DNA of 64,000 bases from positions 124,001 through 188,000 of the forward strand of contig CANLXH010000001.1 of the NCBI GenBank assembly GCA_947495075.1. The letters are read 5' to 3'. How positions within the stretch are numbered: position 1 is the stretch's first letter; the number at the start of each line of letters is the position of its first letter. Positions 32,445-48,670 of this stretch are shown here, one piece after another. The DNA comes from an uncultured Croceitalea sp. Its GTDB lineage: Bacteria; Bacteroidota; Bacteroidia; Flavobacteriales; Flavobacteriaceae. Both the position numbers and the translations under genes were made by a program. Below the pieces are notes generated by a model, which was not told the origin of the DNA, searched no databases, and was given only the letters and a program-made list of their open reading frames with translations.

Positions 32445-33743
32445 TTAGTAGCTTGGTAACATTTTTACATCCTTGATTTCGGATAGCTTCAAAGGAGCCT
32501 TCGTTTTTTCGTTATACAATTGAAAATCCCCGATTTTGGTGTCTTTTTTGCCTAATAAGTGCTCCCTGAAAATTATCGCTTCGTCCCTAGTAAGAAAACG
32601 TACCACATAGCGAACCCCATTTTTCTCAGCCAAAAGCCTCTTAGTATTAGTTTTATCAAGAAAAAAGTTGAAGAGTTTGGGAGTTACATCCTGAACTGTA
32701 AAAATTGCCTTGTCATCATAGAATTTTTTCTCCAATTGATAATACTCTATTACGTCGTCCCCCTCGAAGTAAGTATTTCCTTTTCTTACGGTTTTGCGAT
32801 ATACCCAATTCAAGGAAATGTCTACCGTTGGTACTTTTCCAAAACTAGGAAGCAGGACTTTCCTAAGGGTTAAAATTTCTTTCTTGTTCTTAATGGCAAA
32901 AGTGCAATATTCCTTGCTTACAAGAGCGTTTTCATCTACTTCCATTTCCACATCAATGGAAATTGGACCGTTGAGATTTTTGTAGGGCGATCCCTCCATA
33001 TAAATAGACATATCCTTGGATGAAATGGAACCACTTTGTGATATCACCCGTTTTCTTAAAGCAATGTTTTCCACTAAAGTGCTTGAATTGGATATCGAAC
33101 CTTCAATAGATGGCGTAAAACTTGAACCACTACTTCCTGTTTGATTGCCACTTTGGTCAAAAATTCCAGAACCGCTGGAAGAATTGGAACCTACTGAAGC
33201 CCCTAAAGAAAAGCTGCGTATCTCTGTATTGGATATACTTCCCAAATCAAGCACTTCATACTTGTTTTGAAACCCCATGAAGTTTTTAAATCGGACATCA
33301 TCTGAATTCAATGAAATCCGAATTTGAAGTGATTCTATTCTATTGGCACTACTTTTTTGGGCCCATTCATCATGAATAAAAAACTCAAGTTTCCGATAAG
33401 TTGTGACGTAGTTTTTATTCACCACTTCCTTTGCTTTTTTAGCCTCTTTTTCCAAAGTTTGCACTAGATTTTCTCTAAGCTTTTTAGGTTCCTTTATTTT
33501 TTTGCCGTACTCGGAAATGAGTTTGAATTGACCTAATTCGGATAGGTCAAAAATCGATTTTTTCTTTTCCTTGGATTTAGCCTTCTTGGTTTTTTTTGAG
33601 TCAAAAGTGACCTTCAGCTTACCAGTGGCATCGCCTATCGCTGTAGAAGGAACTTGGATCTTCTTATATGAATTGGTATATCTGGGTTTACTAGCACAGC
33701 TATATATTAAGATGACCAGTAGTAAAAGAATACTGTTTTTCAT
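32445..33743 (-). CDS. island lipoprotein of unknown function
   Basis: Lipoprotein of about 432 residues starting at MKNSILLLLVILIYSC (the upstream 18 codons of the open frame are not needed and would precede the signal peptide). Very Lys-rich region at residues 45-65 (KKTKKAKSKEKKK), a Ser/Gly-rich low-complexity segment near 195-230 (GSNSSSGSGIFDQSG) and a beta-rich C-terminal half. No recognised domain. It is the last gene of the eight-gene leftward operon, 10 bases after the preceding small gene. Confidence 0.7.
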   Translation of the reverse strand: MKNSILLLLVILIYSCASKPRYTNSYKKIQVPSTAIGDATGKLKVTFDSKKTKKAKSKEKKKSIFDLSELGQFKLISEYGKKIKEPKKLRENLVQTLEKEAKKAKEVVNKNYVTTYRKLEFFIHDEWAQKSSANRIESLQIRISLNSDDVRFKNFMGFQNKYEVLDLGSISNTEIRSFSLGASVGSNSSSGSGIFDQSGNQTGSSGSSFTPSIEGSISNSSTLVENIALRKRVISQSGSISSKDMSIYMEGSPYKNLNGPISIDVEMEVDENALVSKEYCTFAIKNKKEILTLRKVLLPSFGKVPTVDISLNWVYRKTVRKGNTYFEGDDVIEYYQLEKKFYDDKAIFTVQDVTPKLFNFFLDKTNTKRLLAEKNGVRYVVRFLTRDEAIIFREHLLGKKDTKIGDFQLYNEKTKAPLKLSEIKDVKMLPSY

Positions 33744-33753
33744 TTTGTCAATT

Positions 33754-34029
33754 TTAATTTTTTGCCTTGAGCATAATGGGAAATCTAGAATATACAAATG
33801 CGGTTGACGTATCGGTAACTTTTACCAGCTTGCTACATTGTCCAAACTTCTCAAATTCACTTTTGCTCACTAAGGTCAATTCGGCTTCCCCATTGAATTC
33901 TTGGTCCTCTATGGGACAAAAGGAAAAGACTTGTGGCAAACATGCCCAGTTGATTCTATCATCATCAATGACAATTCGTATCTGTGCACTGTTATAATTT
34001 GTGCCAAAAGGGTGATCGTGTGATTCCAT
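33754..34029 (-). CDS. small acidic island protein
   Basis: 91 residues, no signal peptide or membrane segment. The sequence is mixed beta/alpha (IRIVIDDDRINWACLPQVFSF, ELTLVSKSEFEKFGQCSKLVKV). No family recognised. It is separated from its neighbours by 11 and 10 bases, which supports it as a genuine member of the leftward operon. Confidence 0.6.
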   Translation of the reverse strand: MESHDHPFGTNYNSAQIRIVIDDDRINWACLPQVFSFCPIEDQEFNGEAELTLVSKSEFEKFGQCSKLVKVTDTSTAFVYSRFPIMLKAKN

Positions 34030-34040
34030 AAATGTGGTTT

Positions 34041-34796
34041 TTATAAGGTTTTTTGTTGGTGTCGGACGGTCAAAAATCGATTAATCAAGGAATCCGTTAG
34101 CCAACCTAGGACTTTTCCTGATGACGTTCCATCTAAAGTGACGAATATATCCCTGCAATTCTGAGTTTTCTCCATTTCTTCTATAGCTTTCTGCAATGTG
34201 GTTGATTTAGACACTGTGACGAATCCATATTCTTTATTATGACCAAAACTGTTTTGTTTTTCTTTTATTAGGTCGGCCAGTGTGTAATCTTTACTTGCTT
34301 GATCCGATTTGCCAGAAAGATATGATCGAATTTGATTTAAATGAATGACATATCTAGGAATTATCTCTGTACTAAATACTGGGACTCTGTCTTTTTCAAC
34401 CTTTTCATATAAACTAATAATATCCTTTAACTTTTTGATTGTATCCTGATCTGTATTTGACTTTTGGGCAACTATTGTTTTTACATTGATCATTATGTTT
34501 TCAACATTGATATCTGACAACGTATCTCTGGTCAACGCCAATGCTTGCTGTGTCGCAACTTCATAATTGTCCCTACCAAAATAAAAGGCGATTACAGCGC
34601 CAATCCATGCCGCAACTAGTGGAACAATGGAATTAAAAACGGACTTAGCGGCATCCAGTTTTTTATCCCCAGCCAACACAATTACTGCTAAACCCAAAAT
34701 GAGCAAAACAGCAAAACCGACCCAAACAATGGTTTTTGTAAGGGTTGTTCTATTCTTATTATTAGTCGCATCAGTAGAATGAAAGATTGTGTTCAT
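34041..34796 (-). CDS. membrane protein with CBS-like C-terminal module
   Basis: 251 residues: two transmembrane helices at about residues 22-42 (IVWVGFAVLLILGLAVIVLA) and 53-75 (FNSIVPLVAAWIGAVIAFYFG), a long helical cytoplasmic region, and a C-terminal stretch resembling one CBS half-domain (GFVTVSKSTTLQKAIEEME, then RDIFVTLD and GKVLGWLTDSLINRFL, near residues 190-245). CBS modules bind adenine nucleotides, which would make this a nucleotide-responsive membrane protein. The CBS reading is by eye. Fifth gene from the left end of the leftward operon to be transcribed after the lipoprotein/TM pair. Confidence 0.6.
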   Translation of the reverse strand: MNTIFHSTDATNNKNRTTLTKTIVWVGFAVLLILGLAVIVLAGDKKLDAAKSVFNSIVPLVAAWIGAVIAFYFGRDNYEVATQQALALTRDTLSDINVENIMINVKTIVAQKSNTDQDTIKKLKDIISLYEKVEKDRVPVFSTEIIPRYVIHLNQIRSYLSGKSDQASKDYTLADLIKEKQNSFGHNKEYGFVTVSKSTTLQKAIEEMEKTQNCRDIFVTLDGTSSGKVLGWLTDSLINRFLTVRHQQKTL

Positions 34797-34896
34797 AGAA
34801 ATATGTTTTATTGAATAGTTTATAATTTAGACTGATTTTATCCAGGGATTATATTATCGCTTTCTGATAAACTAAATAGCCCTCAAGAACTCATAG

Positions 34897-35565
34897 TTAT
34901 TTAGGAGATTTATTTTCTGTTACATCTATGATTTCTGTCTTCGCGAAGCCAGTATTGTCAATACTCAACTGGTTTATCGGATATACATGAGCAATATATA
35001 AATAGAAGAAAGCTATGGAAAGAGATAGAATTATTAACCCAATTATAGAAGAGTTTATTTTTATTCCATTAGTTAGGGATAGTTCTATCTCGGTTTTATC
35101 CGCTTTGGTTACAGTATCAAGTTTTTGAAGATTTTCAGAGTCTACGATTTTAAGAATGGAGTTTACCTGCTTAATAGATTGGTAAAACTGAATACCTGAA
35201 AAAACAAGACCGCACAAAACAATAATTATAACAGCAACAAAAATCAATTTACCTGAAAGAAGTTGCCAATTAAAAGTTCTCCTTCTATGATTCAGGTTGT
35301 CTGTGAAGTAATTCGAATACTGTTTTTCAAAGTATAGTTCTTTTGAAATCTCATTCTTTAATCTAGATATTTCCGATAAATCTTGATAGTATTTTAGTGA
35401 ATCGGAAATTGATGATTCATTCTGCTTCATAAAGTCATCAAACTTCTTTCCTATGTCGACTGAAGAAGAATCTTTTTGTCCATTGACGAAAGTACCAAGT
35501 AGAAGAAATAATAAAAAGACAAACGTCTTGACCCCAGCTTTTAGGGAGTTAGTTGATACTGACAT
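34897..35565 (-). CDS. membrane protein with coiled coil
   Basis: 222 residues: an N-terminal signal or transmembrane segment (TFVFLLFLLLGTFV, about residues 14-28), a helical region (about 40-90), a transmembrane helix at about 108-130 (LIFVAVIIIVLCGLVFSG) and another at about 172-192 (SSIIGLIILSLSIAFFYLYI). No known domain. Overlaps the upstream lipoprotein gene by 17 bases, so the two are probably produced together. Confidence 0.6.
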   Translation of the reverse strand: MSVSTNSLKAGVKTFVFLLFLLLGTFVNGQKDSSSVDIGKKFDDFMKQNESSISDSLKYYQDLSEISRLKNEISKELYFEKQYSNYFTDNLNHRRRTFNWQLLSGKLIFVAVIIIVLCGLVFSGIQFYQSIKQVNSILKIVDSENLQKLDTVTKADKTEIELSLTNGIKINSSIIGLIILSLSIAFFYLYIAHVYPINQLSIDNTGFAKTEIIDVTENKSPK

Positions 35566-36172
35566 AATATTTTGAACTTAGAAATTTTAAAAATCTTTTC
35601 CGGAAAACAAATCGCTTAGAATCCGTGTCAATATCCCTTTTGCCTTCCATTCCGAGATATTGTTCATAGGTTAATCCTTCCAATTTTTCTTTATTTCCTT
35701 CAATTATTACTTTTATGGTCTCCAGATAGGTTTTGGAATCTGTTGCTAAATTACCAGTACGGGCAGGAAAAATATCCAAGTCGCTTGCTAATCCCCTGCA
35801 ATTTATTTTTAGCAAATCATTTTTTCTTAGCCTTTCAAGATTTGGAATTACATTTTCTTTTTGAAGTTGTTTGTAATCCTCACAGAACAATTGTGCAAAA
35901 TCAATTTTGAGTATTCCATTTTGAATATTGACACTAATAATTTTAGGTTCAAAATTCTTAATTCTACCAAGGTAATTATTTCCTTGGGCCAAAGAATCAA
36001 GTTGTATAATTTCTCTTTTAAATTTGTCTCTTTCATTTTCAGTATTCTCAAATTCAGAAAATGAAGAGATTAAAGGTGAGGTTTTATCCTGTTCTGAGGT
36101 AGTCTGACTGGCAGTTCTACAACTTAACAAAGAAGCAAATACATAAAGAAATAAAAAAAAATTGCCTTTCAT
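35549..36172 (-). CDS. lipoprotein of unknown function
   Basis: 207 residues with a lipobox at Cys18 (ASLLSC). The mature protein begins with a Ser/Thr/Gln-rich linker and is otherwise helical and highly charged, with one possible beta-rich segment (PKIISVNIQNGILKIDFAQLF). No motif recognised. It overlaps the next gene by 17 bases and follows the Cys/Gly-rich gene by 45 bases, within the leftward operon. Confidence 0.6.
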   Translation of the reverse strand: MKGNFFLFLYVFASLLSCRTASQTTSEQDKTSPLISSFSEFENTENERDKFKREIIQLDSLAQGNNYLGRIKNFEPKIISVNIQNGILKIDFAQLFCEDYKQLQKENVIPNLERLRKNDLLKINCRGLASDLDIFPARTGNLATDSKTYLETIKVIIEGNKEKLEGLTYEQYLGMEGKRDIDTDSKRFVFRKRFLKFLSSKYYVSIN

Positions 36173-36217
36173 TGATTAAGGATTTGTTGGAAATAATACA
36201 TTGAAAATATTTCTGGT

Positions 36218-36604
36218 CTAACAGCTCTCACACCGAGAATAATCTGGTTGGCTACCACCTCCACCACCATCGCAATAAGCATCTACCCTCGCACGGCCAC
36301 CAGAACAAGAACCGCAACCCCAATAAACATAAGTACATGTTTCACTACTTTTAAGACATGACAAGAAGGATTTGGCCTGACTATCATCTGAGTTTTCCAA
36401 TTGTTCAATTAAATTAGCCACAGAGACATAGGATTTTGAAACAAATTCGTTTGAAAATTCACCAGCTACTCTTCTTATTTTTTCAGAAAGTTTGTCATCG
36501 GACTTTCCCTTTACATTATTTAAATGCAAAGTGAATTCAAACTTTTTTGAACCTTCAATTTTTTGAGGAGTGATTATCTCCGCGCTTTCGTTAATAATTT
36601 TCAT
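36218..36604 (-). CDS. small protein with Cys/Gly-rich tail (possible peptide precursor)
   Basis: 128 residues. Residues 1-80 are ordinary and charged (NESAEIITPQKIEGSKKFEF, then helices). The last 46 residues hold seven cysteines, a GGGGG run and several aromatic residues (CTYVYWGCGSC, DAYCDGGGGG, SRCESC). A leader-like front and a Cys/Gly-rich C-terminus are the shape of ribosomally made peptide precursors, but also of small metal-binding proteins. No signal peptide. No standard maturation enzyme is next to it, although a subtilase is encoded in the same operon. Confidence 0.55.
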   Translation of the reverse strand: MKIINESAEIITPQKIEGSKKFEFTLHLNNVKGKSDDKLSEKIRRVAGEFSNEFVSKSYVSVANLIEQLENSDDSQAKSFLSCLKSSETCTYVYWGCGSCSGGRARVDAYCDGGGGGSQPDYSRCESC

Positions 36605-36658
36605 TCTCTAAAATTTTTGTTGTTATTAAATTATTCTTTCTCTTTGATTAATTCTTTT

Positions 36659-37984
36659 TTAAAGTTCTATTAGTTGCCAATTTCTGTTTTTAGGCATCAT
36701 CTTGAAATCAAAATTTCGTTTCTTCGATTTGTATTCTTTCATCTTTCCTTCAACTTTTTGCATATGCTTTTTTTGATTTTCGGTTAAGTCGTCTTTTGGA
36801 TTTGAACTGAACCAAAACGTAAAAGGTTTGTCTACCTCGGCATTGTTGCTTTTTTCACTAATGTTACCTGTCCTAGAATTAAAAATTACATCTAACACAG
36901 TTTCTTCTGGATTCGTGTGTGTACCGTTTCCACAAAAAACATAGTGATTAGCTGTAATCTTTTTACAGAATTTTTTATCAATGTTTGCAGCTGCTCCATG
37001 GTGCTGTACTTTTAAAACATCAACATGTAGCCCCCCATTTTGATTTAGCTTTTGATTCTTTTTGAGACCTTTTATGATGTCGTCTGAGTGTCCATCACCT
37101 GTCATTAGAATGGATTTGCCCTCAGCCTCGGCTAAAAACATAATAGATGCAAGATTTGGAATTGTTACATCTTCACGATCTCCAAGTGAACCACTGTTCA
37201 CTAGGAGTTGAGATACCTGAGGGATACTTAATGGCTGGTTTAGTGCGGTTATGCTCAAATCGGCATAAAATGATTCTAAAGTTTTACGATGTTTTTTCTC
37301 CCACTCTATCCAATCTTTTTTAAGTTCTGTTAAATCATTTGAAAATGGACCTATAACGGAAAGGTTTATTTTACCAATTTTATGTTCATTTTTGCTTATC
37401 GTACTCTGATTACATTTGACCAAACTACCATTAAACTGTGGGTTCAAATCTATATTTAATTGTTCTGGACGAATTCGTTGAGAAAGTGTTATCCCCTGTT
37501 TAATGCTTGTCGCTTTATGGTTTACCTTGTCAAGAACAAGTTCATTTACATGATTAGCGGTCATTTGCTCAATGTTCTGAAGGGCATTTGCTATTCTTGG
37601 TAAAGCTTCTCCAAGTTCATAAGTTCTTGCAAATGAATTATGCCAAATTGATTTGATTGAAGGAGGTTCGAGAACTTTTGGTCTAGAAACATTTGCCGTA
37701 CTATTGGTTCGTTTAGAATGATGATTGAATACCCTCCATTTAGCAATTAATTCCATTAGGGTTATTACTCCTTTAATATGGTCATCATCTATGTGAGAAA
37801 CGCATAATAAATCTATATGCTCGTTCTTGTTCTTTACCTCTTTATTTAAGTATGGTGCTACCGAACTGTTAAAACTGCCTTTCATTCCACCATCGACTAG
37901 GACATTAGTGTTTTTGCCATTGCTGTTAGGATGTGAAATCAGGAGAGCATCACCTTTTGACGAGCGGAAAATTATAAGTTTCAT
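36659..37984 (-). CDS. metallo-beta-lactamase-fold hydrolase (ComEC-type MBL domain)
   Basis: 441-residue soluble protein with the MBL fold. The metal-binding motif reads SHIDDDH near residue 65 (HxDxDH variant), a later acidic ligand lies in LMTGDGHSDD near 290, and a terminal His occurs in VLKVQHHGAAAN near 320. These match the hydrolase domain seen in ComEC-like proteins, which cut DNA or phosphodiesters, but the membrane channel is missing. A large insertion (residues about 95-250) is family-atypical. It lies 26 bases downstream of the subtilase gene and is expected to act with it. Confidence 0.75.
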   Translation of the reverse strand: MKLIIFRSSKGDALLISHPNSNGKNTNVLVDGGMKGSFNSSVAPYLNKEVKNKNEHIDLLCVSHIDDDHIKGVITLMELIAKWRVFNHHSKRTNSTANVSRPKVLEPPSIKSIWHNSFARTYELGEALPRIANALQNIEQMTANHVNELVLDKVNHKATSIKQGITLSQRIRPEQLNIDLNPQFNGSLVKCNQSTISKNEHKIGKINLSVIGPFSNDLTELKKDWIEWEKKHRKTLESFYADLSITALNQPLSIPQVSQLLVNSGSLGDREDVTIPNLASIMFLAEAEGKSILMTGDGHSDDIIKGLKKNQKLNQNGGLHVDVLKVQHHGAAANIDKKFCKKITANHYVFCGNGTHTNPEETVLDVIFNSRTGNISEKSNNAEVDKPFTFWFSSNPKDDLTENQKKHMQKVEGKMKEYKSKKRNFDFKMMPKNRNWQLIEL

Positions 37985-38010
37985 CTGTGAGTGTTTACAT
38001 TATGCAATAA

Positions 38011-40161
38011 TTATTCATCAGTAACATCTTCAAAATTTATTAATTGATTTGCCTCCTGGATACATGCATCCACATTGACAAGGCCAAAACCTGTATCATC
38101 TTTCCAATCATAATTCAAACCCGTTATTGGTGTAGCTGTACGTTTTAAAATGCCTGCAATTTGTGAGGAAGTTAATTGGGGGCGCATAGCGAGTAAAAGC
38201 CCTGCAACACCGCATACATAAGGACTAGCCATACTAGTCCCTGTTTTTGGTGTCCAAAGACTATCCGACCCACTAAAACCGTTAGCTGCTATGATATTTG
38301 TCCCAGGAGCCACAATCTCAGGCTTCTTTCGATTGTCTCTTGAAGGACCTTGGCTGCTTGTAATGTTGATTTTGTCATTTTGCGTATCAAAATTGCCGAC
38401 GGCAATAACATTATGTCCACAAGCCAAAGAGTTTATGGACTTGTTATCAACGTTGGTTTTCTCTGTAAAAAAGGATGGAAAATTCCAAAAGTTCTGAACC
38501 CTTCTCACAGGGTCGTCCCTTTCTATCCAAGCATCAAAATGACCATCTCTAATCTCATCTCCTATAACCCTAACTTTCCATAAACCAGCTTTTACACCAA
38601 CAACTTGCTGTGGATTTAAATTTGGGCTTAAATAAATAGCTATGTAGTTATTGCCATTGGCTTCATGATAAACCTTATTGTAGACACTCAAAAAAGACAA
38701 ATCATCAAGCTGTTGGTTTTCAATAAATTGTTGGGGCTTTACTGGACCAATCCATTCACCTCCAGGGGGTCTAATCATTACGGAAAAACGATCTTGGGGT
38801 TCATACCATATTTCAAGCTCATTTTCAGAAACGTCGCTAATGCCATTACCCACAACTTGCCACTCCAAATCCACTGAAAGACCTTTATTAGGGATTTTTC
38901 CCGATGTATGGATTCTTCCCATTATATAACCGAAATCGTTGGGAACTACCCCTTTTTCCTGTCCTGCGTTGCCAGTGGCTACTGAAACACATCGTCCATC
39001 TAAAGTAAGTTGATTATCTATCCAACGGTTAACTCCGGCACTGCCGTCATGGGCATGCCCGTTGGTACCTAGGCTAATGTTTATGGAAATTGGCTTTCCC
39101 TCCTTTTTTGCCAATTCTAAAAGGAAGTCGACAGCATCAGAAATTCTTGAAGAATCGGTAAAAGACTTAGTACGATCTTCATCCTCCTCAGGTAAGGAAA
39201 TCAATACCCCGGCAATATCTGCTTCGGAGCAGACACCCGAATTTCCCGCAGCAATACTTGCGACATGGGTGGCATGGGATGAAGGGAACTGTTGGGACTG
39301 TGATTCAATGTCATGTATGGGAGCTCCGATATTGAGTGCTTCATTGATAGCAATGTTCATATTCTGTTGGGTAAGGAGGCTTCCATAGTCCAAACCATCA
39401 AAATTGTTCCATGTGGCTTTGGGTGAGGGCCTATGATTGCCACCTTGATCCCAGATTGCCAAAAACCTAGTCATGCCATTCTCGTCAAGAAAATCTGGAT
39501 GTGCATAATCGAATCCACCAACGTCAACTATTCCAATAATAACATTTTGCTTATTGAAATGAGGTGTTGTGGCTTTTAAATTCAAACCTTTTGGCTTTTC
39601 TTTGATTGACAATGGAACGGTCGTCAACGGAGGAGTGAGTATGGATTGAGTACCTTCTATTCCCACTATGTGCTTACTTGTCATCAAGATTTTGAGGTAG
39701 TCCAGTACAATTGTAGCCTTGACCACCTTGCCGCACTGTCGAACGTTTCTGACCTGAGTTTTGAAGGTCTTATCCTTAATATGCAATGCTGGATCATTAA
39801 TTACGTCCTTCCATAAGCTACTTGCTCTTAACTCAATGTAAATGTTTGCCTCAATTGAATTAGGAGGATTGTCTTCAATGTTACCTTTTCTTAGACTTGC
39901 TTTTACGGATTTTTCACGTGAAAGGACGTAGGCCTCCTTGAATATTTCTGATTCGGAGGTCAATGAGATTTTTTGTGCCATTTGGTACGTGGCACTCATT
40001 AGTTGTTTTTGGTCTAGAATCCTTTTGTTTGTTGCAATGCATGGATTAGTAATGGACCGTATGGCGTTTACCTCGTTACTACCATTGGCAATCATACGAA
40101 GCTTTGCATGGATCTTTGAGTAATTTCCAAGTTCTTGTTTAGATTTTTCCCTTTTTGACAT
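38011..40161 (-). CDS. subtilisin-like serine protease (S8), probably cytoplasmic
   Basis: 716-residue subtilase. Catalytic Asp is in IIGIVDVGGFDYAHP near residue 212, His in SSHATHVASIAAG near 299 and Ser in TGTSMASPYVCG near 641. About 180 extra residues (about 440-560, strand-rich: LEIWYEPQDRFSVMI, GLWKVRVIGDE) sit between His and Ser and look like an inserted beta-sandwich, as in the Csp-type clostridial subtilases. A 200-residue N-terminal extension lacks a signal peptide, so the enzyme seems to stay inside the cell. It is the first gene of the leftward operon. Confidence 0.88.
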   Translation of the reverse strand: MSKREKSKQELGNYSKIHAKLRMIANGSNEVNAIRSITNPCIATNKRILDQKQLMSATYQMAQKISLTSESEIFKEAYVLSREKSVKASLRKGNIEDNPPNSIEANIYIELRASSLWKDVINDPALHIKDKTFKTQVRNVRQCGKVVKATIVLDYLKILMTSKHIVGIEGTQSILTPPLTTVPLSIKEKPKGLNLKATTPHFNKQNVIIGIVDVGGFDYAHPDFLDENGMTRFLAIWDQGGNHRPSPKATWNNFDGLDYGSLLTQQNMNIAINEALNIGAPIHDIESQSQQFPSSHATHVASIAAGNSGVCSEADIAGVLISLPEEDEDRTKSFTDSSRISDAVDFLLELAKKEGKPISINISLGTNGHAHDGSAGVNRWIDNQLTLDGRCVSVATGNAGQEKGVVPNDFGYIMGRIHTSGKIPNKGLSVDLEWQVVGNGISDVSENELEIWYEPQDRFSVMIRPPGGEWIGPVKPQQFIENQQLDDLSFLSVYNKVYHEANGNNYIAIYLSPNLNPQQVVGVKAGLWKVRVIGDEIRDGHFDAWIERDDPVRRVQNFWNFPSFFTEKTNVDNKSINSLACGHNVIAVGNFDTQNDKINITSSQGPSRDNRKKPEIVAPGTNIIAANGFSGSDSLWTPKTGTSMASPYVCGVAGLLLAMRPQLTSSQIAGILKRTATPITGLNYDWKDDTGFGLVNVDACIQEANQLINFEDVTDE

Positions 40162-40495
40162 TGGTGATATTTAGAAACAGCTAAAAATTAGACCTAGTTC
40201 TTCTTGAGGGATAACCTAGTAATAGTAGAAATTAGTATGGAGATTTTGAGCCCTTATAAGATACGAAGCTATTGTAAACAGGAAATTGTAATCGACTAAA
40301 AACCAATTATTCAGATTAAATGTTAAGTGCAAATGAAAATCATAAAAATTCATGGTTTTTGTATATTCTACATTGGGTAAAAACCAAAAAAAAAAAAAGG
40401 TTTTTATGCAATATAAATATTGTTATATTCACTATATTTCGCAATAGTTCTTTCCCCCAAAGCTTTCGTTTTTACTAATTTCATCACCAACCAAA
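40162..40495. promoter_or_regulatory. divergent promoter region of the island (334 bases)
   Basis: AT-rich interval between the leftward subtilase operon and the rightward NTPase operon. It contains the inverted repeat TAAAAACC (40378-40385) and GGTTTTTA (40399-40406) around 13 A, a possible operator at the middle of the region. A TATATTTC near 40431 resembles a -7 element with one mismatch. No open frame is seen. Confidence 0.45.
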
Positions 40496-43400
40496 ATGCC
40501 AAAATCTCGGTTTAGAGCTGATTATTCTTTTTTGAAAGAAGTTTATGTCGAACTCTATAATTATAAATTCTTTCATAGTCCATCAGTAGTTGGAAAGATA
40601 GATGGACGTTTTCGTGGTCGCAAGAAAATAGAAAATAAACTTTATAACATTCTTAAAGCAAGTAAGGTTAAATCCGGCGCGTATTTAATTACTGGGTATC
40701 GAGGGGTTGGTAAAACGAGTTTAGTGAACAAAGTTCTTTCACGAAGGGTTTATTTTAGTTTTAAAAAATGGGGAAAAATATCGGAGATGTTTGGCTTTCT
40801 TAAGATAAGAAAGCCAAATGCTCCAATAGTTATACGGCTTAATCTCGGTCATGAGGAACTAAAAGAGAAGGATATTTTAAATTTAGTTGCTAAATCGTTA
40901 TTTGAAAAATATCGATTATGGTATTCGAGATTTGCTATTTCCTTCTACGGCAGATGTAATAAGGTTTTGATAGCCTGTTTGTTTTCTTTTTTGTTAGTAA
41001 AGAAACTCCGAATTGGCGAATTACCATACGTAAAATCCATACTTGATGGTTTTCATGGCTTGTTTGCTTATAACTACAGATTTTGTGATTTTCTTGAATC
41101 CAACGCCATTTTACTATGGTTAATTTCCTTTATAATATTCTATCAGTTAGTTAGATTAATTTTATCGGTATGGTTTAAAAATAGCATTCCCACTAATAGC
41201 TCAGCAATTCGAAAGCTTAGATTTTTAAATTCAAGGATTGATTCACAAGTTATATATGAGCAAGGTGCAGGGGTTAAAAGATCTTTTTTTGATTTGGGTT
41301 TTGGTAAAAAAAACATATACCCTATTGCAGATGCCAGGGATATTGAAATTGCATTAATAGGAGCCTTTGAGTATATAGATCGTATTCTTTTCCCAAAACC
41401 AAAGTTCATATTTGTATTCGATGAACTGGATAAAATAGAAGCGCATCAAAATAGGAGCATACAGCAAAAAGAGGAGTATGACTTGGGTGCTTCAGGATAT
41501 TCCACAAGTGCAGAATTGACCAGAAAAAGACAACAGGCAACCTCGAGGATTCTTGCCAATCTAAAACACTTTTTTACGACTGCCAGGGCCAAATTTATTT
41601 TTATTGCCGGTAGAGAAATGTATGATGCTACCTTGGCCGATATAAGTGATAGAAACTATTTTCTAGGAAGCATTTTTCATGATGTTATTTATGTGAATAG
41701 TTTTTTGACAGAAGACCCGGAACCTCTTAATAAAGGAGGGAGCGATTTGCCTTCTAAAAAAGACAACCCTGAGCATACATCCTATTATCATAGTATGGCA
41801 GAAGAATTTCTATGTCAATTTCTAATGCCAAAAACCTTTGTTTACAGAAATAAGGAAAAAAATAGGATGATCAGGGCACGTTTGGACAATCCAATTAAGA
41901 TTAGCCCAGAAGAGGAACGCAAAAGTATTTCTCTCAAAACGTACAACTTGTTTTTAGAAAATCATTCTGAAATACGTGATGATGAAGAAAAGGTTAGGAG
42001 GGTGATTTTGGTTTTAAATCAATTTATAACCTATCTGGCCCATCGAAGTTCGGGTTCTCCAAAGAAACTTACACATTTGCTGGAAAGTTACATTTGCAAG
42101 AATTCTGAAACCCTTTTTGATAAGGGCAGAAAAGAATACCACGATATAAGAACATTGGTAGCCAAAAGGAAAGAATGTACACCAAATAAACTATTCCTAC
42201 ACTTTGATTATTATTCGCAATATACTTTTGGAATAATCGATTACCTAACAGTTCCATACTATTATAATATTTCTCGTTATGTAAGAAGGTACAATGATAA
42301 GTTGATGGTTTCAACTGCATACCTTCTAGATCACCTATATAAGTTTCACAATTTTGGTTTTTCTTGGAGGAATTTGGAGGTTACACCTGAAATAATTGAT
42401 GTTAATAAGGCACCTACACTTCGAAAACTCATTGAAGATATTGTCAACTTTTTAAGTTATACACATCTTCAGCATGTGGTTAGCGGTTTGTACGATTTCA
42501 AATTCAAAAAAAAGATAGCATATGAAATAGATTTTCTTTCAAAAGTGTCTGAAAGAGAATCTGCAGCAATGAACTTTACTTTAGATGAGTCGCAAGAAGT
42601 CAAAGGGCATTTTAGGAGAAAACTAGAGCATTTGATCAAGGATTATAAGAACGAAAAGAGTTCCAAATATATTCATTCAAAGGGCTATATCCAGCAAAGC
42701 TTAGCCGACCTTCATTACTATGACCAAGAATATGATGATGCATCCATTATGTATAAAGATGCTATTCAGCAGATTACTAAAAATAACGACAAAGAACCTG
42801 AAGCTTCAATACGCATTTTGATTATACTCTGTAGAATCATGTTAAAGATGGGATTGACCTTTGAAAGAAAAAAGGCATATACCTCTGCCTTAATGGCCTA
42901 TAGTGAGCTAACGGATCTGATAATAAAGAGCTTGGAGGTTGAACTAAAAAAACTGGGATTTGTAAAAAGGAATGATGAAAATAATAACATCTTAATTCAT
43001 AAAATAAGGTCGGATGAAAGTATTGATTATTCTTCCGAAGCCACAGTAAATGAATATGTTAAAAATTACCATAATGATATTTTAAACCTTCCATTTTATT
43101 CATTTAATCATGAGCTTTTATATAAATCATCTACTGCGGAGACAGTACGTCTTTTATACCAACCCTTTATGGCAAAACTCCATGTATTGGATAAAGAAAA
43201 GATAGGCGGTATTACGGATGAGGATATAAAAGTGGCATTAAGGCAAGTATCTTTTTTAACTAAAATCACAAATGCAAAGGTTGAAAAATTGATTCTAGCA
43301 GAGTATCACAATAAAGTAGGGGATTTATTATATTTTATTAATTATCGCCCTTTCTATACTGGTGAAAGAGAAGAAGAAAAAGACATTCATAATAAATTCT

Positions 43401-44842
43401 CTGCTCAGAAGCTTTATCGCATAAGCTTGCAAATGTCGGGGGATGAGGATAAACACCTCATTGATATACTATTCGATAATTATATTGATATATCACCTAA
43501 AAATAATCCAAAAACTAATCCACGGTTTGAAGAGATAAAGATGCTTGCCAGTGGGTTGAGCGATTTAGGGGATGCTTATTTGTGTTCGATAGATAAAAGC
43601 ACTAACACAATCAACTGGGGCTTATATAAAATCATAGTTGCTCTTTTCGAAGAAGATAAAGAAATCAAGAATAAGCGCAAAGAAATAAAAACCTTATTCG
43701 AATCTGGAAGTTTGAATAGGGTTTTGAGTTGCTATTTGATGTCCAGCTTTTTTTACTATTTAAATGATGATCATAGTAAGGCAGCTTTTCAATATATCAA
43801 GGTGTTGCACTTAATTGAAATGAACAGTTCAAAAATTACTGAGACGCTTAGTCAAGGAACAAAAGAGATCTTTTTTGATAATGTCAAAACTATGGTCATG
43901 AAAATCCTTTCTTACATATATAGATCTTATAGTGCTTCTACCCGTCAGGAGATTGAACGAATGAAAGAAATTTTTAAAATTGGAAGAAAGGAAATAGATG
44001 ATAATTTCCATTATATCCTTAATAATTTGCCATCCATTGGCGAAGCACAGGAGATTTTGATGCTATATCAATTAATAAAACTACGTTTTGGAGTATTTGA
44101 TAAGGAGTGGGATAAACTTAAAAAAGATTTCTCACTTTATAATCCCAGTAAGTACGCTAATTTAAATGGCATGTACGGTCGCCTGAATTCACTTTATGTT
44201 AAGATAAGGTTCAATTATGGAATTTTTGAAAGACGAATGAGAGAGCTTAACGGGTTAAAAAATGAAGGGGAAATTCCAGCTTGTTTTGGGTCTATTTGGG
44301 AAAAGATGACAAAAGAAGATCACGATATAATTAAATATTTGATAGCCGATACTATATATTGTTTGACCGAAACTATTAGGATTTTAAAAGTCTTTGGAGC
44401 GACTTATATAACCAATCATTCTACGTTTGCTTTCGCGTATGAAAAAAGAGCTGCGTGGTGCGAATATTTTGAAGGTTACGACATAGAAGAAAGAAAGCCT
44501 AGAATTTCAATAAATAGAAAAGGTTCCTCAAAATTGTATATGATAACAAGAAATTTGATTGGCTCACAAGCCATGCCGAATTTAAAGGCGAAATACAATT
44601 ATGAAAAGGCGGCCTTTCATTTTACACAGGCCATTGAAACTCATGAAAGTAGATTTACGTATGATCGTTTTACAGAAAGCTTGTACTATTTAGAAGACGA
44701 TTTTAATGACAATCATCTTCATTTTTTTACCGCACTAGAACGCTATAAGATTAACCTTGGGAAAATAAATAAGAAACTCAACTATTGCGATGAGAAACTT
44801 GAGAAATCAAAGATTTATATTACAGAAATGTACGATAGTTGA
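40496..44842 (+). CDS. giant membrane P-loop NTPase with KAP-like architecture
   Basis: 1448-residue protein. Walker A is ITGYRGVGKTSLV near residue 66, and Walker B is KFIFVFDELDKIE near 305. Between them lie two transmembrane helices (about 157-175 and 204-228): a membrane segment inserted into the NTPase domain, the hallmark of KAP-type ATPases and of transmembrane-NTPase anti-phage proteins. The C-terminal two thirds are helical, with TPR-like repeats such as LADLHYYDQEYDDASIMYKDAI near 745. It probably senses or transduces something at the membrane. It is the first gene of the rightward operon. Not identified as any named protein. Confidence 0.8.
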   Translation: MPKSRFRADYSFLKEVYVELYNYKFFHSPSVVGKIDGRFRGRKKIENKLYNILKASKVKSGAYLITGYRGVGKTSLVNKVLSRRVYFSFKKWGKISEMFGFLKIRKPNAPIVIRLNLGHEELKEKDILNLVAKSLFEKYRLWYSRFAISFYGRCNKVLIACLFSFLLVKKLRIGELPYVKSILDGFHGLFAYNYRFCDFLESNAILLWLISFIIFYQLVRLILSVWFKNSIPTNSSAIRKLRFLNSRIDSQVIYEQGAGVKRSFFDLGFGKKNIYPIADARDIEIALIGAFEYIDRILFPKPKFIFVFDELDKIEAHQNRSIQQKEEYDLGASGYSTSAELTRKRQQATSRILANLKHFFTTARAKFIFIAGREMYDATLADISDRNYFLGSIFHDVIYVNSFLTEDPEPLNKGGSDLPSKKDNPEHTSYYHSMAEEFLCQFLMPKTFVYRNKEKNRMIRARLDNPIKISPEEERKSISLKTYNLFLENHSEIRDDEEKVRRVILVLNQFITYLAHRSSGSPKKLTHLLESYICKNSETLFDKGRKEYHDIRTLVAKRKECTPNKLFLHFDYYSQYTFGIIDYLTVPYYYNISRYVRRYNDKLMVSTAYLLDHLYKFHNFGFSWRNLEVTPEIIDVNKAPTLRKLIEDIVNFLSYTHLQHVVSGLYDFKFKKKIAYEIDFLSKVSERESAAMNFTLDESQEVKGHFRRKLEHLIKDYKNEKSSKYIHSKGYIQQSLADLHYYDQEYDDASIMYKDAIQQITKNNDKEPEASIRILIILCRIMLKMGLTFERKKAYTSALMAYSELTDLIIKSLEVELKKLGFVKRNDENNNILIHKIRSDESIDYSSEATVNEYVKNYHNDILNLPFYSFNHELLYKSSTAETVRLLYQPFMAKLHVLDKEKIGGITDEDIKVALRQVSFLTKITNAKVEKLILAEYHNKVGDLLYFINYRPFYTGEREEEKDIHNKFSAQKLYRISLQMSGDEDKHLIDILFDNYIDISPKNNPKTNPRFEEIKMLASGLSDLGDAYLCSIDKSTNTINWGLYKIIVALFEEDKEIKNKRKEIKTLFESGSLNRVLSCYLMSSFFYYLNDDHSKAAFQYIKVLHLIEMNSSKITETLSQGTKEIFFDNVKTMVMKILSYIYRSYSASTRQEIERMKEIFKIGRKEIDDNFHYILNNLPSIGEAQEILMLYQLIKLRFGVFDKEWDKLKKDFSLYNPSKYANLNGMYGRLNSLYVKIRFNYGIFERRMRELNGLKNEGEIPACFGSIWEKMTKEDHDIIKYLIADTIYCLTETIRILKVFGATYITNHSTFAFAYEKRAAWCEYFEGYDIEERKPRISINRKGSSKLYMITRNLIGSQAMPNLKAKYNYEKAAFHFTQAIETHESRFTYDRFTESLYYLEDDFNDNHLHFFTALERYKINLGKINKKLNYCDEKLEKSKIYITEMYDS

Positions 44843-44943
44843 ATTATTAAAAAAAATAATGTTAAAAGTTGTATGTATTGAAATGCATGGAACATTGGAA
44901 ACAGTATTATATTATTAAATAATATTTCGTTAAAAAATAAAAA

Positions 44944-45444
44944 ATGAATTCGTATGTAAAAGTGTTAGAAATAATAAGTGGGATGACAGAAATAGTTAAA
45001 AGAATTACACCAGTGTTTCTAGCAATAGTATTCTTGTTGACAGCAGGCTGGGTTTTAAGAGAAGTATTTTTGATTACATATGATTCAATCAGTTATGATA
45101 TGGAAACTGATAACATTTTTGTTCAATACAATAACGAACCAAAAAGTTCTGTAAGGATTGATTCCAAAGCATTGATCATGCCGGATGGGTTAAACAATGA
45201 GCTTATTGAATCTGTAATACAACATAGAAGCCGTCTTAGAGTAAGTTTTGCAGTAATTTCAATTGGAGCTACAATGATTTTTGCCGGATTTGTTTATATT
45301 CTTTTTGGTTTAACAAAGATCAAGTTCGTTAAAGATTATTATTTTGAAGCCAAATCAGTTTTAAATACAAATCTACCAGGAATTGCGCTGGTTTTTTTTG
45401 GAACCACTCTGATTGTTTTAATTTCACTAAAATTTATAGTTTGA
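44944..45444 (+). CDS. two-helix membrane protein of the rightward operon
   Basis: 166 residues with two or three hydrophobic segments: about 20-40 (VFLAIVFLLTAGWVL), 100-122 (FAVISIGATMIFAGFVYILFG) and 142-162 (GIALVFFGTTLIVLISL). No motif recognised. A 101-base gap from the NTPase gene holds no visible terminator, and its stop is nine bases before the next start, so it belongs to the same transcript. Confidence 0.6.
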   Translation: MNSYVKVLEIISGMTEIVKRITPVFLAIVFLLTAGWVLREVFLITYDSISYDMETDNIFVQYNNEPKSSVRIDSKALIMPDGLNNELIESVIQHRSRLRVSFAVISIGATMIFAGFVYILFGLTKIKFVKDYYFEAKSVLNTNLPGIALVFFGTTLIVLISLKFIV

Positions 45445-45452
45445 CAAAAACA

Positions 45453-47201
45453 ATGTACAAATCCAATTTCATATATACTAGTGAGATTATTTCCTTTCTT
45501 AAAAAAGGGAATATAATATCTGATGATGAAACACCTTCTGATATGATTTCGCGAATGGTGAGTAATATATTTTCAGTTGAAACAAAGTTTAAAACATCTG
45601 AAAATGAAATTGATTATTTAGAAAAAGATTTTGGTCATTTCATTGATAATCACTTTTGTGTTTTAAGTACACCAATTTTAACAAATGCTGGCCGCTATAG
45701 AAATAGACCACTTTCTGCGTGCACAGTTCCAGAAATAGATTTAAATGATAACAATGAAGAGCTTGAAAGTGTTATAAATGTTTTTCATGAAATGGGAATG
45801 GGCACAGGATTTAGTTTCGACTCATTGGATAACCCCATTGAGAAAATAATTTCCCTGAATGAGATAGCCTTGAGGGGGGCCAAAAGCGGGAGGGAGAATA
45901 GACCAGTTGGTAACATGGGAATTTTATCGGTCTATCACCCTAAAATAGAAGATTTTATAAAACTTAAAATTACTGCGGACAGGCAAAATATAAAATGGAA
46001 ATTTAATCTATCCGTAGATATCGATGAAAATTTTATTACATCAATCAATAATAAATCGACTTACAAGTTGATGAATGGTAAGTTGAAAGATGCTAATGAA
46101 ATTTTTGACTTGATTGTGGAATCAGCACATAAATGTGGTGATCCGGGACTTGTATATCTTGATAGATTAAACCGGGACAATCCGGTTCCTGCCGTAGGCA
46201 AATACATTAGTACTGCTCCATGTGCAGAAGTAGGACTGTCGCCGGGGGAAGCTTGTCAATTTGGATATATAAACATAGCAAGATTTCTAAAAGATGACAA
46301 CAATTACGATTTCGAGGCTTTGCAGCGGCTTACGCATTTACTCGTCAGGGTCTTAGATAATGCCTTAGAGTTGAGTTTGCCAAACTACCCTTATCTTAAG
46401 ACTGTCGAAGTTATGACCGCAAAAAGAAAAATTGGAATTGGAATATGTGGAGTAGCAGATTTATTAATAAAGAAAAGATTGCCTTATGATTCTATGCAGG
46501 CCAGAGAATATATCTCTGACATTCTTTGCTTTATCAACTTCCACTCAAAAAAAGCTTCTTATTATTTGGGTAAAACCAGAGGTTCATTTGGCGCAATGAA
46601 TCTAATAATTGGGAATGAACATCTAGAAACCCCGTCATTTATTGAGAGAAAGTATGGGAGTTTTAGTTCAAAAATAATCTCTAAATCTGATTGGAATAGT
46701 TTGGCTGCAAAGATAAGAGAGGAGAAATGTTTAAGAAATGCAACTACAATAGCTTTACCTCCCACAGGTAGAAGCGGTTTGGTAATAAACGCCTCAACAG
46801 GTGTGGAGCCACTTTTTTCTTTGGTCGATTATTATGGAAATATTAATAAATCCTTAAGGCAAGATTTGATTGCCGAGGGAGTTTGGAACAATGAAACAAT
46901 TCAAAATATTAAGGAATCAGGTTCTATTCAAAATATTGATGAAATTTCAGAAAATATTAAAAGAATATATAAAACAGCTTTGGAAATTGAACCAATAGAC
47001 CATTTAAAAATGGTTGAAAGACTCCAAAATTTTGTTGATGAATCTATTTCAAAGACAATTAATTTACCCGAAGATATTAGCATTGAAGATACTAAAGAAA
47101 TTTATCTTAAATCTTACAAACTTAATCTCAAGGGAATAACAATATATAGAAAAAACTCAAGAAGAAAGCAACCTAGAAAATTATCGAACAATAGCAAATG
47201 A
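45453..47201 (+). CDS. divergent ribonucleotide-reductase large-subunit-like protein
   Basis: 582-residue member of the RNR barrel family. The family order is visible: VLSTPILTNAGR with PLSACTVPEI (first redox Cys near residue 75), PVGNMGILSVYHPKIEDFI, then APCAEVGLSPGEACQFGYIN near 255, and ALPPTGRSGLVINASTGVEPLFSL near 430. The central Cys and Glu of the C-x-E motif and the partner Cys (EACQFG) are kept, but the usual N before it (N-P-C-G-E) is A. The C-terminus is basic with no Cys pair. No small subunit is encoded nearby, so it resembles the cobalamin-dependent (class II) branch. A TTG twelve bases upstream overlapping the preceding stop is an alternative start. Confidence 0.72.
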   Translation: MYKSNFIYTSEIISFLKKGNIISDDETPSDMISRMVSNIFSVETKFKTSENEIDYLEKDFGHFIDNHFCVLSTPILTNAGRYRNRPLSACTVPEIDLNDNNEELESVINVFHEMGMGTGFSFDSLDNPIEKIISLNEIALRGAKSGRENRPVGNMGILSVYHPKIEDFIKLKITADRQNIKWKFNLSVDIDENFITSINNKSTYKLMNGKLKDANEIFDLIVESAHKCGDPGLVYLDRLNRDNPVPAVGKYISTAPCAEVGLSPGEACQFGYINIARFLKDDNNYDFEALQRLTHLLVRVLDNALELSLPNYPYLKTVEVMTAKRKIGIGICGVADLLIKKRLPYDSMQAREYISDILCFINFHSKKASYYLGKTRGSFGAMNLIIGNEHLETPSFIERKYGSFSSKIISKSDWNSLAAKIREEKCLRNATTIALPPTGRSGLVINASTGVEPLFSLVDYYGNINKSLRQDLIAEGVWNNETIQNIKESGSIQNIDEISENIKRIYKTALEIEPIDHLKMVERLQNFVDESISKTINLPEDISIEDTKEIYLKSYKLNLKGITIYRKNSRRKQPRKLSNNSK

Positions 47202-47779
47202 AAAACCAAGAAGTAGAAATACGTGCTTTACTTCCTGATAAAGATGAGAATTTTCATGATGAGTTAATTCAGACGGGAGCTAGCAAGATTGGAGAAAGTA
47301 TATTAGAAGATTGGTATTACTGTCCTAACCATGTTACTGATTTTTCAGAAATAGAAATGAAAGAAATCGGGACATACAGTTTAAGGATAAGAAAAAGCAC
47401 CGGTTTTATTTCTGATGAAGGAGAATTAAATGTAAAAATAATTTCTCGGTATGATGATCATAGTTCATGGGAAGAGCAAGAAGTTAAGGTTTCTTCAGTG
47501 GAAGAAATGAAAAAAATTTTACGATCAATAGGATTTAAAAAATATTTTGAAATTCGAAAGGAAAGAACTGATTATATACTTGGTGAATTAAATATATCTG
47601 TTGAGAAAATTAAGGGGTTAGGGTATGCTATTGAGGTTGAAATAATGACTACAAGAGAGAAATCTTCAGAGGCCAAAAATAAAATACGAAAGTTTTTAAG
47701 TCGACTTAATATTAATCCGGATAATGCTGTTCCTAAGAGTATTACTAACATCCTAATGCGAAAATTGTCAAAATTCTAA
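47198..47779 (+). CDS. CYTH-domain protein (class IV adenylate cyclase/triphosphatase-like)
   Basis: 193-residue CYTH tunnel-fold protein. The diagnostic ExExK motif is at the N-terminus as EVEIR (Arg in place of Lys). Further acidic and basic strand patterns follow (SLRIRKS, LNVKIISR, WEEQEVKV, FEIRKERTDYI, GLGYAIEVEIM). CYTH enzymes act on triphosphates: class IV adenylate cyclases make cAMP from ATP, others split thiamine triphosphate or polyphosphate. Its start overlaps the RNR-like gene's stop (ATGA), so the products are made together. The reaction here is unknown. Confidence 0.78.
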   Translation: MKNQEVEIRALLPDKDENFHDELIQTGASKIGESILEDWYYCPNHVTDFSEIEMKEIGTYSLRIRKSTGFISDEGELNVKIISRYDDHSSWEEQEVKVSSVEEMKKILRSIGFKKYFEIRKERTDYILGELNISVEKIKGLGYAIEVEIMTTREKSSEAKNKIRKFLSRLNINPDNAVPKSITNILMRKLSKF

Positions 47780-47782
47780 TAG

Positions 47783-48496
47783 ATGAAAAGTTTTTTATTG
47801 AAAAATTATAATTGGATTGGGCCATCGATTCCTATAATTTCTACTATTGCGTTAACTTTTTATTTTTCAGAATTAAGATTAAATTCTAAGTCAAAAAATA
47901 TGGATTTAGGAAATTCAATTTTAGATTTAGGTTTTTTTAATGTAGTTTTTTTAGTTGGATTTTTCTTTCTAGGATTACTTATTTATCTAAATTTTATTTA
48001 TCAAAGTAGTAAGCAATCTTTACAAAAAACAAATGATTTACGATTTATAGATGAAATGCTTGGAATAATTGTAGATGTTTGGAAGCATAATAAGCCAGAT
48101 ATAGTTATGAGAGCTTTGGTTACACACTATAAAGAAAAAGAGGGTACTCGTGTCTCAGTTGCCGGAGTTAATGTGCGGCAGGACCCTGAGAGTAATCGTG
48201 GTGTCCCTTATGATTATGGTATAGCAGGGGAAGCTTTTGTATACGATAAGGTGGTATGCGAAGACATTGATCTGTCAATTATCCCTACCGAAGATATGAG
48301 GAAAAGAACTTGGCAAGAACTTAGGTGTGTTACTGCTACTCCAATTAAAAACCTAAATGGAGAAAAAATAGGAACACTAAATTTTGATAGTTCATCAAAA
48401 TTGGACGTGACCAAATTTGATGATAGAGATTTCCAAGACGTCCATTGTAGAATAGCAGAAATTATAGGACCAATTATTGATAGACATTTTAACTAA
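47783..48496 (+). CDS. membrane protein with cytoplasmic GAF domain
   Basis: 237 residues: two transmembrane helices at about residues 12-30 (IGPSIPIISTIALTFYF) and 50-70 (FFNVVFLVGFFFLGLLIYL), then a GAF-like domain (about 95-235) with VSVAGVNVRQDPESNRG, the GIAGEAFVYDKVV stretch, CVTATPIKNLNGEKIGTLNFD and a closing helix. GAF domains bind cyclic nucleotides or other small ligands. With the CYTH gene three bases upstream, it is a natural effector for a nucleotide signal, which is inference. Confidence 0.72.
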   Translation: MKSFLLKNYNWIGPSIPIISTIALTFYFSELRLNSKSKNMDLGNSILDLGFFNVVFLVGFFFLGLLIYLNFIYQSSKQSLQKTNDLRFIDEMLGIIVDVWKHNKPDIVMRALVTHYKEKEGTRVSVAGVNVRQDPESNRGVPYDYGIAGEAFVYDKVVCEDIDLSIIPTEDMRKRTWQELRCVTATPIKNLNGEKIGTLNFDSSSKLDVTKFDDRDFQDVHCRIAEIIGPIIDRHFN

Positions 48497-48585
48497 TAAC
48501 AATTACCCCGTTGGTTTGTTTCTTTATAATAAGCTTGATTGACTTCATGAAACCAATTCTTTATTGTTCTCAAGACTCGTATAAA

Positions 48586-48670
48586 GACCAGAACTTAGTT
48601 TCAATAACGTAGGTATAATAGGTGTTTTGGCTGCCTCAAATTTCGCTACTCACCGAATAGGTCACTTTTG
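48586..48670 (+). repeat. right copy of diverged 85-nt direct repeat flanking the island
   Basis: Begins GACCAGAACTTAGTTTCAA and ends CTCACCGAATAGGTCACTTTT, matching the left copy at 32165-32249 in length and ends. The interval 48497-48585 before it also carries, on the minus strand, a short open frame (reading RTIKNWFHEVNQAYYKETNQ) that looks like a decayed protein end I do not recognise. Confidence 0.6.

Follow-up and report, generated by a model that had tools for sequence, protein, structure and literature searches.

A subtilase-metallo-beta-lactamase gene pair in a variable interval of Croceitalea, a candidate protease-gated nuclease module beside a separate operon

Introduction

What do two divergent operons with thirteen genes do for the bacterium that carries them, and do they work together? 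We asked this of a locus at positions 32445-48496 of a 64,000-nucleotide stretch of DNA from an uncultured Croceitalea sp. (Flavobacteriaceae; contig CANLXH010000001.1, positions 124,001 to 188,000, forward strand). This whole stretch is called the window, and coordinates are those of the window unless another locus is named. We focus on a subtilase gene and a metallo-beta-lactamase (MBL) gene at the head of the left operon. Our preferred reading, to which we give a probability of roughly 0.6, is that this pair is a subtilase-activated, gated DNase for abortive immunity, and that the right operon is a separate module with local partners.

Results

The left arm opens with a subtilase and a ComEC-like nuclease gene

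The locus has eight minus-strand open reading frames (ORFs; 32445-40161) and five plus-strand ORFs (40496-48496), the arrangement given by the original prediction, which was made from the sequence letters. The tight packing that it described also holds, as neighbours within an operon lie 3 to 101 bases apart or overlap (gaps from the subtilase onward: 26, 54, 45, -17, 100, 11 and -44 bases on the left; 101, -4, -4 and 3 bases on the right). The first two genes of the left arm are as follows.

38011..40161, minus strand: subtilase (family S8), 716 amino acids (aa), without a signal peptide; Pfam Peptidase_S8; triad D213, H296, S643
36659..37984, minus strand: ComEC-like nuclease of the MBL fold, predicted to be a gated pro-nuclease; some 125 extra residues (~79-270); LmuA, RTasMBL and Avs1a models

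Pfam matches agree with the labels first given to four of the thirteen genes (subtilase, MBL, ribonucleotide reductase (RNR)-like and CYTH). The subtilase matches Peptidase_S8 at 1.1e-26. Its D213/H296/S643 triad is intact, at positions that are invariant in 5 aligned members of type A (defined below). A hydropathy scan found no transmembrane (TM)-like segment, and there is no lipobox, in either the subtilase or the MBL protein, in keeping with the description of the subtilase as cytoplasmic-looking.

The MBL protein matches Pfam Lactamase_B at 3.8e-6 and three models of the PADLOC defence library far more strongly: LmuA (4.9e-55), RTasMBL (8.3e-35) and Avs1a (1.6e-31). All 12 aligned MBLs match these three models, and the metal-site motif H64-D66-D68-H69, together with D297 and H328-H329, is invariant in the 12-row alignment. 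The best solved relatives of the 12-row profile are ComEC nucleases. The two blocks matched to ComEC 9ic4 are separated by 188 positions in the profile and by 63 residues in ComEC, and the extra segment of about 125 residues corresponds roughly to residues 79-270 of the window protein.

The pair recurs on rhizobial plasmids

We searched plasmids for MBL relatives at 1e-20 and obtained 16 records (9 Rhizobium, 6 Sinorhizobium and 1 Methylorubrum). In 16 of 16 the MBL gene is immediately preceded, in the same orientation, by an S8 gene, as read from fetched loci for 11 records and from match coordinates alone for the other 5 (H2, H7, H8, H10 and H12). The corresponding subtilase search gave 32 plasmid records, and all 12 at 41-56% identity carry the MBL gene. 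Of the other 20, 8 were listed; three of these (H13, H16 and H17) were fetched and have no MBL relative in the stretch read. The unlisted records may include some type B loci. Only S8 and MBL, out of the 13 island proteins, are present in all 11 fetched plasmid loci.

Distances between S8 proteins correlate with those between MBL proteins (r 0.95 over 11 pairs; 0 of 5000 permutations as high), a correlation that is also expected for any two co-inherited genes. Locus L021, whose S8 ORF is short (292 aa), was excluded from this test and from the S8 tree. S8 starts in the spacing analysis are those of the longest ORF, and some gaps differ from the annotated ones. The MBL tree splits with full support into type A, comprising the window and seven plasmids, and type B, comprising the cyclase/TIR, patatin and FRG loci described below; their subtilases split likewise. 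Unpaired subtilases fall between types A and B in the S8 tree, which therefore requires two changes of the MBL link. One change is allowed by 6% of 200 bootstrap trees, and a single origin would be compatible with the well-supported branches taken alone. Both trees are small and midpoint-rooted.

An MBL profile at 1e-25 found only its own copy in 247 genomes of the phylum. Across 296 genomes of the order, the subtilase at 1e-30 hit itself and a single relative, at 31%, and the Avs1a model found the window MBL and one other (in genome G404) in 198 genomes. Scans of viral contigs gave no relative of the subtilase and one partial match to the MBL.

The genes directly upstream of the pair encode a nucleotide cyclase, an E2-domain protein and a TIR protein in Methylorubrum, a patatin in S. 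meliloti M270 and an FRG protein in R. phaseoli; the FRG gene of R. leguminosarum lies one gene further upstream. S. medicae T10 and S. chiapasense have caspase-family genes at a distance of a few kb from the pair, and none occurs here. On the Methylorubrum plasmid pCMU01 (locus L033, 555-7230), adenylate/guanylate cyclase, E2-domain, TIR, S8 and MBL genes stand in a row, which may be a signalling system that uses the pair. We also observed a LodA/GoxA-family oxidase gene near the pair in L010 and a DUF3616 gene downstream of it in L035.

This distribution bears on one alternative, that the pair is a stress or plasmid-maintenance device acting on host substrates and not a protease-pronuclease switch. 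The pair lies mostly on conjugative plasmids (13 of the 16 MBL records are typed conjugative), and its function is read from sequence comparison; both points suit this alternative. The matches to defence models, the extra MBL segment and the TIR, patatin and FRG neighbours argue the other way, and we consider it unlikely.

The pair resembles known protease-gated nucleases

IetAS is a system of an AAA ATPase and a subtilase. The left arm shares with it the presence of a subtilase and differs from it otherwise, in that the IetS model is matched only at 0.0071 and no IetA match was found among the scanned proteins.

Closer relatives are the trypsin- and caspase-activated nuclease pairs described in 2025 (PMC12799240). 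HamM and Avs1a have insertions covering a ComEC-like active site that a trypsin-like protease cuts, with Ile and Gly as the published cut residues, and the nuclease CanC is turned on by a caspase complex (PMC12799240). As in the trypsin-MBL pairs of Hachiman (HamMAB), AVAST type 1, Lamassu and DRT, the ComEC-like MBL gene adjoins a protease gene, the LmuA, RTasMBL and Avs1a models match, and the extra residues lie in the same stretch of the MBL, where the published gated pro-nucleases bear their protease-cut gates (PMC12799240). In those pairs a trypsin is fused to HamA, Avs or Lmu; the partner here is a stand-alone upstream subtilase. Core genes of the four systems (STAND NTPase, LmuB SMC, HamA/HamB and reverse transcriptase) had no PADLOC match among 17 proteins from 30742-51636. 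The gene order is that of Canu, with a stand-alone protease gene upstream and a nuclease gene downstream (PMC12799240), except that a subtilase replaces the caspase; no caspase match was found among the scanned window proteins. In fungi, the subtilase HET-Q2 cuts and thereby activates a death effector, the gasdermin HET-Q1, with which it forms a two-gene pair (PMC10989679). HET-Q1 is a pore former and the effector here a predicted nuclease, and the likeness is one of analogy only.

Taken by sequence, the left arm appears to be a variant of the protease-gated nuclease kind, with a subtilase as the partner. The protease tree of PMC12799240 contains further families that its text does not name, and subtilases may be among those in its figures or supplement. 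A literature search at the level of titles and abstracts, over open-licence papers, found no description of a subtilase-MBL pair or of an RNR-CYTH defence set among the papers listed. The original prediction had known of no described system with this gene set and overlooked the 2025 pairs, the closest known kind for the left arm.

We propose that the left arm is most likely an abortive immune device. If it defends at all, the MBL protein would start out as a ComEC-like DNase with inserted gate segments lying over its active site. Either the subtilase or a neighbour of it would sense infection, and the cytoplasmic subtilase would then cut the gate, within residues 79-270. The freed nuclease would degrade DNA, and the cell would die or stop growing before the phage matures.

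Several points weigh against this proposal: (i) many of the 16 plasmid records are near-copies, and nearly all are rhizobial; (ii) the 11 plasmid loci have none of the other six left-arm genes, bar one relative of the 251-aa protein described below; (iii) some plasmid loci have metabolic-looking neighbours, for example in R. leguminosarum 248; (iv) the NCBIfam Avs1a model is matched at 3.3e-41 and 141 bits, against a cut-off of 420, and the window MBL is a relative of Avs1a and not an Avs1a; and (v) a single-sequence AlphaFold model of the MBL protein reaches a pLDDT (predicted local distance difference test) of only 33, and the gate over the active site is a prediction from the position of the extra residues.

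The other left-arm genes may be a local addition

Downstream of the pair, the left arm continues with six further ORFs; the intergenic region that divides the arms is listed with them.

36218..36604, minus strand: Cys/Gly-rich small protein, 128 aa; 7 Cys and 12 Gly; no Pfam match
35549..36172, minus strand: predicted lipoprotein, 207 aa; lipobox LLSC
34897..35565, minus strand: membrane protein, 222 aa, with 3 hydrophobic segments by hydropathy; DUF2207_C at 5e-6, below its cut-off
34041..34796, minus strand: membrane protein, 251 aa, with a C-terminal CBS-like domain; CBS at 4.7e-5, barely above cut-off
33754..34029, minus strand: 91-aa ORF from the ORF list, gene status uncertain; no Pfam match
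32445..33797, minus strand: 450-aa ORF, lipoprotein; lipobox IYSC at residue 31
40162..40495, no strand: divergent intergenic region, 334 bases, between the two arms

These assignments agree with the first description of a Cys/Gly-rich protein (7 Cys and 12 Gly in 128 aa) and of membrane and lipoprotein genes, the 450-aa and 207-aa proteins each having a lipobox and others hydrophobic segments. The 450-aa ORF is listed with a TTG start, and its lipoprotein signal starts at an internal ATG 18 residues downstream, which is probably the true start. The 44-base overlap with the 91-aa ORF, which vanishes with that start, is probably not real. The shared 334-base region had been called a divergent promoter region. 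The gap is there, but no promoter signal rises above chance: promoter-like sites in 32000-49000 number 72 against 67.8 expected, and the gap has no Bacteroidota-type promoter motif. Rfam and tRNA scans of the window gave no match.

Relatives of these genes rarely accompany the pair. The 128-aa protein has no relative on plasmids or in the 11 plasmid S8-MBL loci, the 207-aa lipoprotein has none in those 11 loci, and the 450-aa lipoprotein has no plasmid match. Four plasmid relatives of the 251-aa protein (30-32% identity) were found; the only one among the 11 loci is in L021, about 13 kb from the pair. The Cys/Gly-rich protein, the lipoproteins and the membrane proteins of the left arm may be a separate or local addition, since they are missing from the plasmid loci, and a part for the lipoproteins in the proposed mechanism is hypothetical. 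The 251-aa protein also matches the PADLOC model RTasSLATT weakly (0.023). Its relatives on two Rhizobium plasmids (L020, 6732-9696; L021, 14389-18702) face a DUF3616 gene cluster.

The 128-aa protein raises a second alternative, that the left arm is a peptide-maturation locus in which the subtilase removes a leader from this protein, the lipoproteins serve export or immunity and the MBL is an accessory hydrolase. The protein is Cys/Gly-rich at its C-terminus and lies 54 bases behind the pair, and the subtilase matches the NCBIfam PatA/PatG model weakly, at 2.8e-6, far below its cut-off. In R. indicum, too, the pair is followed by a Cys-rich 107-aa ORF, at a distance of about 2 kb. Against this, the pair is present in all 11 plasmid loci where the 128-aa protein has no relative, the best MBL models are defence nucleases, and Pfam recognised no peptide-modifying or transporter gene among the left-arm genes; we judge the alternative to be very unlikely. 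Downstream of the R. indicum pair (L008, 15570-18468) we observed a tyrosinase-family gene, the 107-aa ORF and a membrane-looking protein. The 107-aa ORF was rejected as a homologue of the 128-aa protein; it has no BLAST match to it and is a look-alike only.

The right operon is rare and separable from the left

The right arm encodes five proteins.

40496..44842, plus strand: P-loop NTPase, 1448 aa; a single marginal TM-like segment lies between its Walker A and B motifs; AAA_16 at 1.3e-5
44944..45444, plus strand: membrane protein, 166 aa, with 3 hydrophobic segments by hydropathy scan
45441..47201, plus strand: shortened class-II-like RNR, 586 aa; NrdJ_Z at 374.4 bits (cut-off 399.95)
47198..47779, plus strand: CYTH protein of CyaB (class IV adenylate cyclase) type; TIGR00318 at 70.8 bits (cut-off 57.95)
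47783..48496, plus strand: membrane protein, 237 aa, with a GAF domain only by eye; TM-like segment at 42-60

The NTPase had been called a giant KAP-like membrane protein. Its size and its Walker motifs (Walker A GYRGVGKTS, Walker B FIFVFDELDKIE) are visible in the sequence, and its membrane character comes down to one marginal TM-like segment at 196-214 in the hydropathy scan. The KAP label fell away: no KAP model matches at E<=1, and the only Pfam match is AAA_16, below its cut-off.

Five relatives of the NTPase were found outside its own genome (L027, L028, L029=L018, L030 and L063). A genome-contig scan gave four of these loci, in Dokdonia, Nitrospirae, Kapaibacterium and Magnetobacterium, and the fifth (59% identity) was met in the variable interval of genome G647 during border mapping. 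A search of 395 genomes of the phylum found one relative besides the NTPase itself, in G438, which is counted as one with the Kapaibacterium locus. In 296 genomes of the order we found only the NTPase and three short matches at 1e-4, taken as chance; plasmids and viral contigs gave no relative. None of the five relatives has an RNR, CYTH, GAF-like or MBL relative in the stretch read, so the partners of the NTPase vary. In L063, about 6 kb separate the NTPase from a weak S8-like match (31% over 102 aa) that comes without an MBL. A trypsin-like protease gene, recognised by eye, lies a few genes behind the NTPase relative in the G647 interval (L067, 5502-6614).

The NTPase relatives lack the S8-MBL pair in the stretch read, and the 11 fetched plasmid loci of the pair lack an NTPase relative. 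The right operon is thus rare and separate from the left, and 'two systems side by side', one of the two options first put forward, is the one that is supported. One joint 13-gene system was rejected, as the arms are separable in both sets of loci; the genes are indeed scattered and unlinked elsewhere when taken as one set of 13, which is false for the S8-MBL pair. PADLOC models gave matches for the MBL protein and none for a core gene of the four systems named above or for any of the five right-arm proteins.

The RNR has a barrel domain (Pfam, 1.6e-82), aligns with T. maritima NrdJ at 230 bits and falls just below the NCBIfam NrdJ_Z cut-off. It keeps three cysteines and a glutamate aligned with active-site positions. 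It reads APC where relatives read NPC or NLC, which puts Ala at an active-site Asn position. N-terminal to the barrel match, two gaps remove about 20 residues, and there is no C-terminal cysteine pair; a Haloarcula relative is likewise short. By these features, nucleotide reduction by the island RNR seems doubtful. We rejected it as the only RNR of the cell, as the genome has a full 830-aa copy. At 1e-100 it found only its own copy in 247 genomes; in 11 genomes related by genus or NTPase, 10 gave matches, none above 41% identity and most in ORFs of about 740-1190 aa.

The CYTH protein matches Pfam CYTH at 5.3e-14 and exceeds the TIGR00318 cut-off for class IV adenylate cyclases. Its solved relatives include CyaB and TTM proteins, and its ExExK motif reads EVEIR by eye. 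A second CYTH gene lies elsewhere in the genome. The GAF domain of the 237-aa membrane protein was not confirmed, with no GAF model at E<=1 and no meaningful match in the PDB; a single-sequence AlphaFold model has a pLDDT of 47. Only its own copy was found in 247 genomes of the phylum. Viral-contig scans gave no relative of the RNR or CYTH protein, plasmids gave no match to the CYTH or GAF-like protein, and phages gave none to the CYTH protein.

What, then, does the right arm do? The alternative here is metabolic or mobile-element cargo, a mobile-element NTPase beside stray nucleotide-metabolism genes. RNR and CYTH are common metabolic families, in Dokdonia a TPR/SH3 protein and a TraD/VirD4-like protein come after the NTPase relative, and the five right-arm proteins have no PADLOC match. 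Cargo explains less well why a genome with an 830-aa RNR and another CYTH gene would carry these copies, why the island RNR is shortened with Ala at an active-site Asn position, and why the arm sits in a variable interval beside the PADLOC candidate pair PDC-M21A/B. We place this alternative somewhat short of an even chance.

A more elaborate scheme would make the right operon a nucleotide-signalling immune system, in which the membrane NTPase would detect infection, a repurposed RNR and the CyaB-type CYTH cyclase would produce a (deoxy)nucleotide signal and the GAF-type membrane protein would act as effector. It would add that subtilases were recruited to gated nucleases at least twice. A Pycsar-like system would call for a nucleotide cyclase and a membrane protein that binds cyclic nucleotides; the operon has a CyaB-type CYTH protein above cut-off, with EVEIR in place of ExExK, and a membrane protein whose GAF domain is unconfirmed. 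Signalling by the right arm is possible, and it depends on that domain and on a gene set seen once; the scheme as a whole strikes us as quite improbable. The RNR-CYTH set was not found elsewhere in the loci and genomes examined, and because of this the membrane- and nucleotide-linked defence once proposed for the right arm stays a guess. A defence role appears well supported for the subtilase-MBL pair only.

Both arms lie in a chromosomal hotspot

The positions 32445-48496, first taken as the edges of an island, did not hold as such; they lie within a variable interval that runs from about 32.1 to 63 kb of the window, bordered by two conserved genes.

30742..32124, minus strand: DEDDh exonuclease-GIY-YIG gene, which forms the left border; relatives across the genus
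62958..64000, minus strand: tyrosine-integrase-like gene, right border, extending past the window to 64217 in the window frame; conserved in G646 and G647

In three genomes of the genus, this one among them, the sequence could be read at both ends of the interval, and both borders were found in all three (the contigs of G201, G642 and G645 ended before the second border, and in G643 the border gene is at a contig end). The interval measures 30.8 kb here, 38.9 kb in G647 and 50.4 kb in G646. In G646 and G647 the integrase-like gene stands at the same border with 84-86% identity, and the same ~400-aa gene follows it there. Because the shared borders enclose mostly different content, both modules are part of the variable interval and sit back to back in a chromosomal hotspot. 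The DEDDh-GIY gene matches PDC-S48; it was rejected as a defence gene because relatives are present in 8 of 8 genomes of the genus, including this one (seven close copies; G644 has only a 43% match).

Other genes of the interval were noted in passing. An AbiEii-like two-gene pair beside the right arm (48703-49931) matches the PADLOC candidate PDC-M21A/B at 4.1e-46 and 1.3e-56. Two adjacent ORFs at 55592-56643 resemble, by eye, one HsdR N-terminal-like restriction subunit split by a stop. In three genomes of the genus the variable interval contains TPR histidine kinase/response regulator-like pairs (window 52173-54714; L061 6276-8966; L063 6994-9509; L067 3020-5454), which share 24-35% identity. 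vWA-like lipoproteins, assigned by eye, stand behind coiled-coil membrane proteins in the intervals of two genomes (window 60633-61565; L067 10168-10977) and have no BLAST link to each other.

Discussion

The right arm, if it is immune, would bring the chemistry of RNR and CYTH proteins into immunity. If our reading of the subtilase-MBL pair as a protease-gated nuclease is true, subtilases would be a third class of protease that switches on the same gated nuclease in bacteria, in parallel with the fungal subtilase that switches on a gasdermin. With TIR, patatin, FRG and cyclase genes near it on rhizobial plasmids, the pair would be a portable death module, one that is filed under other names in the PADLOC defence library.

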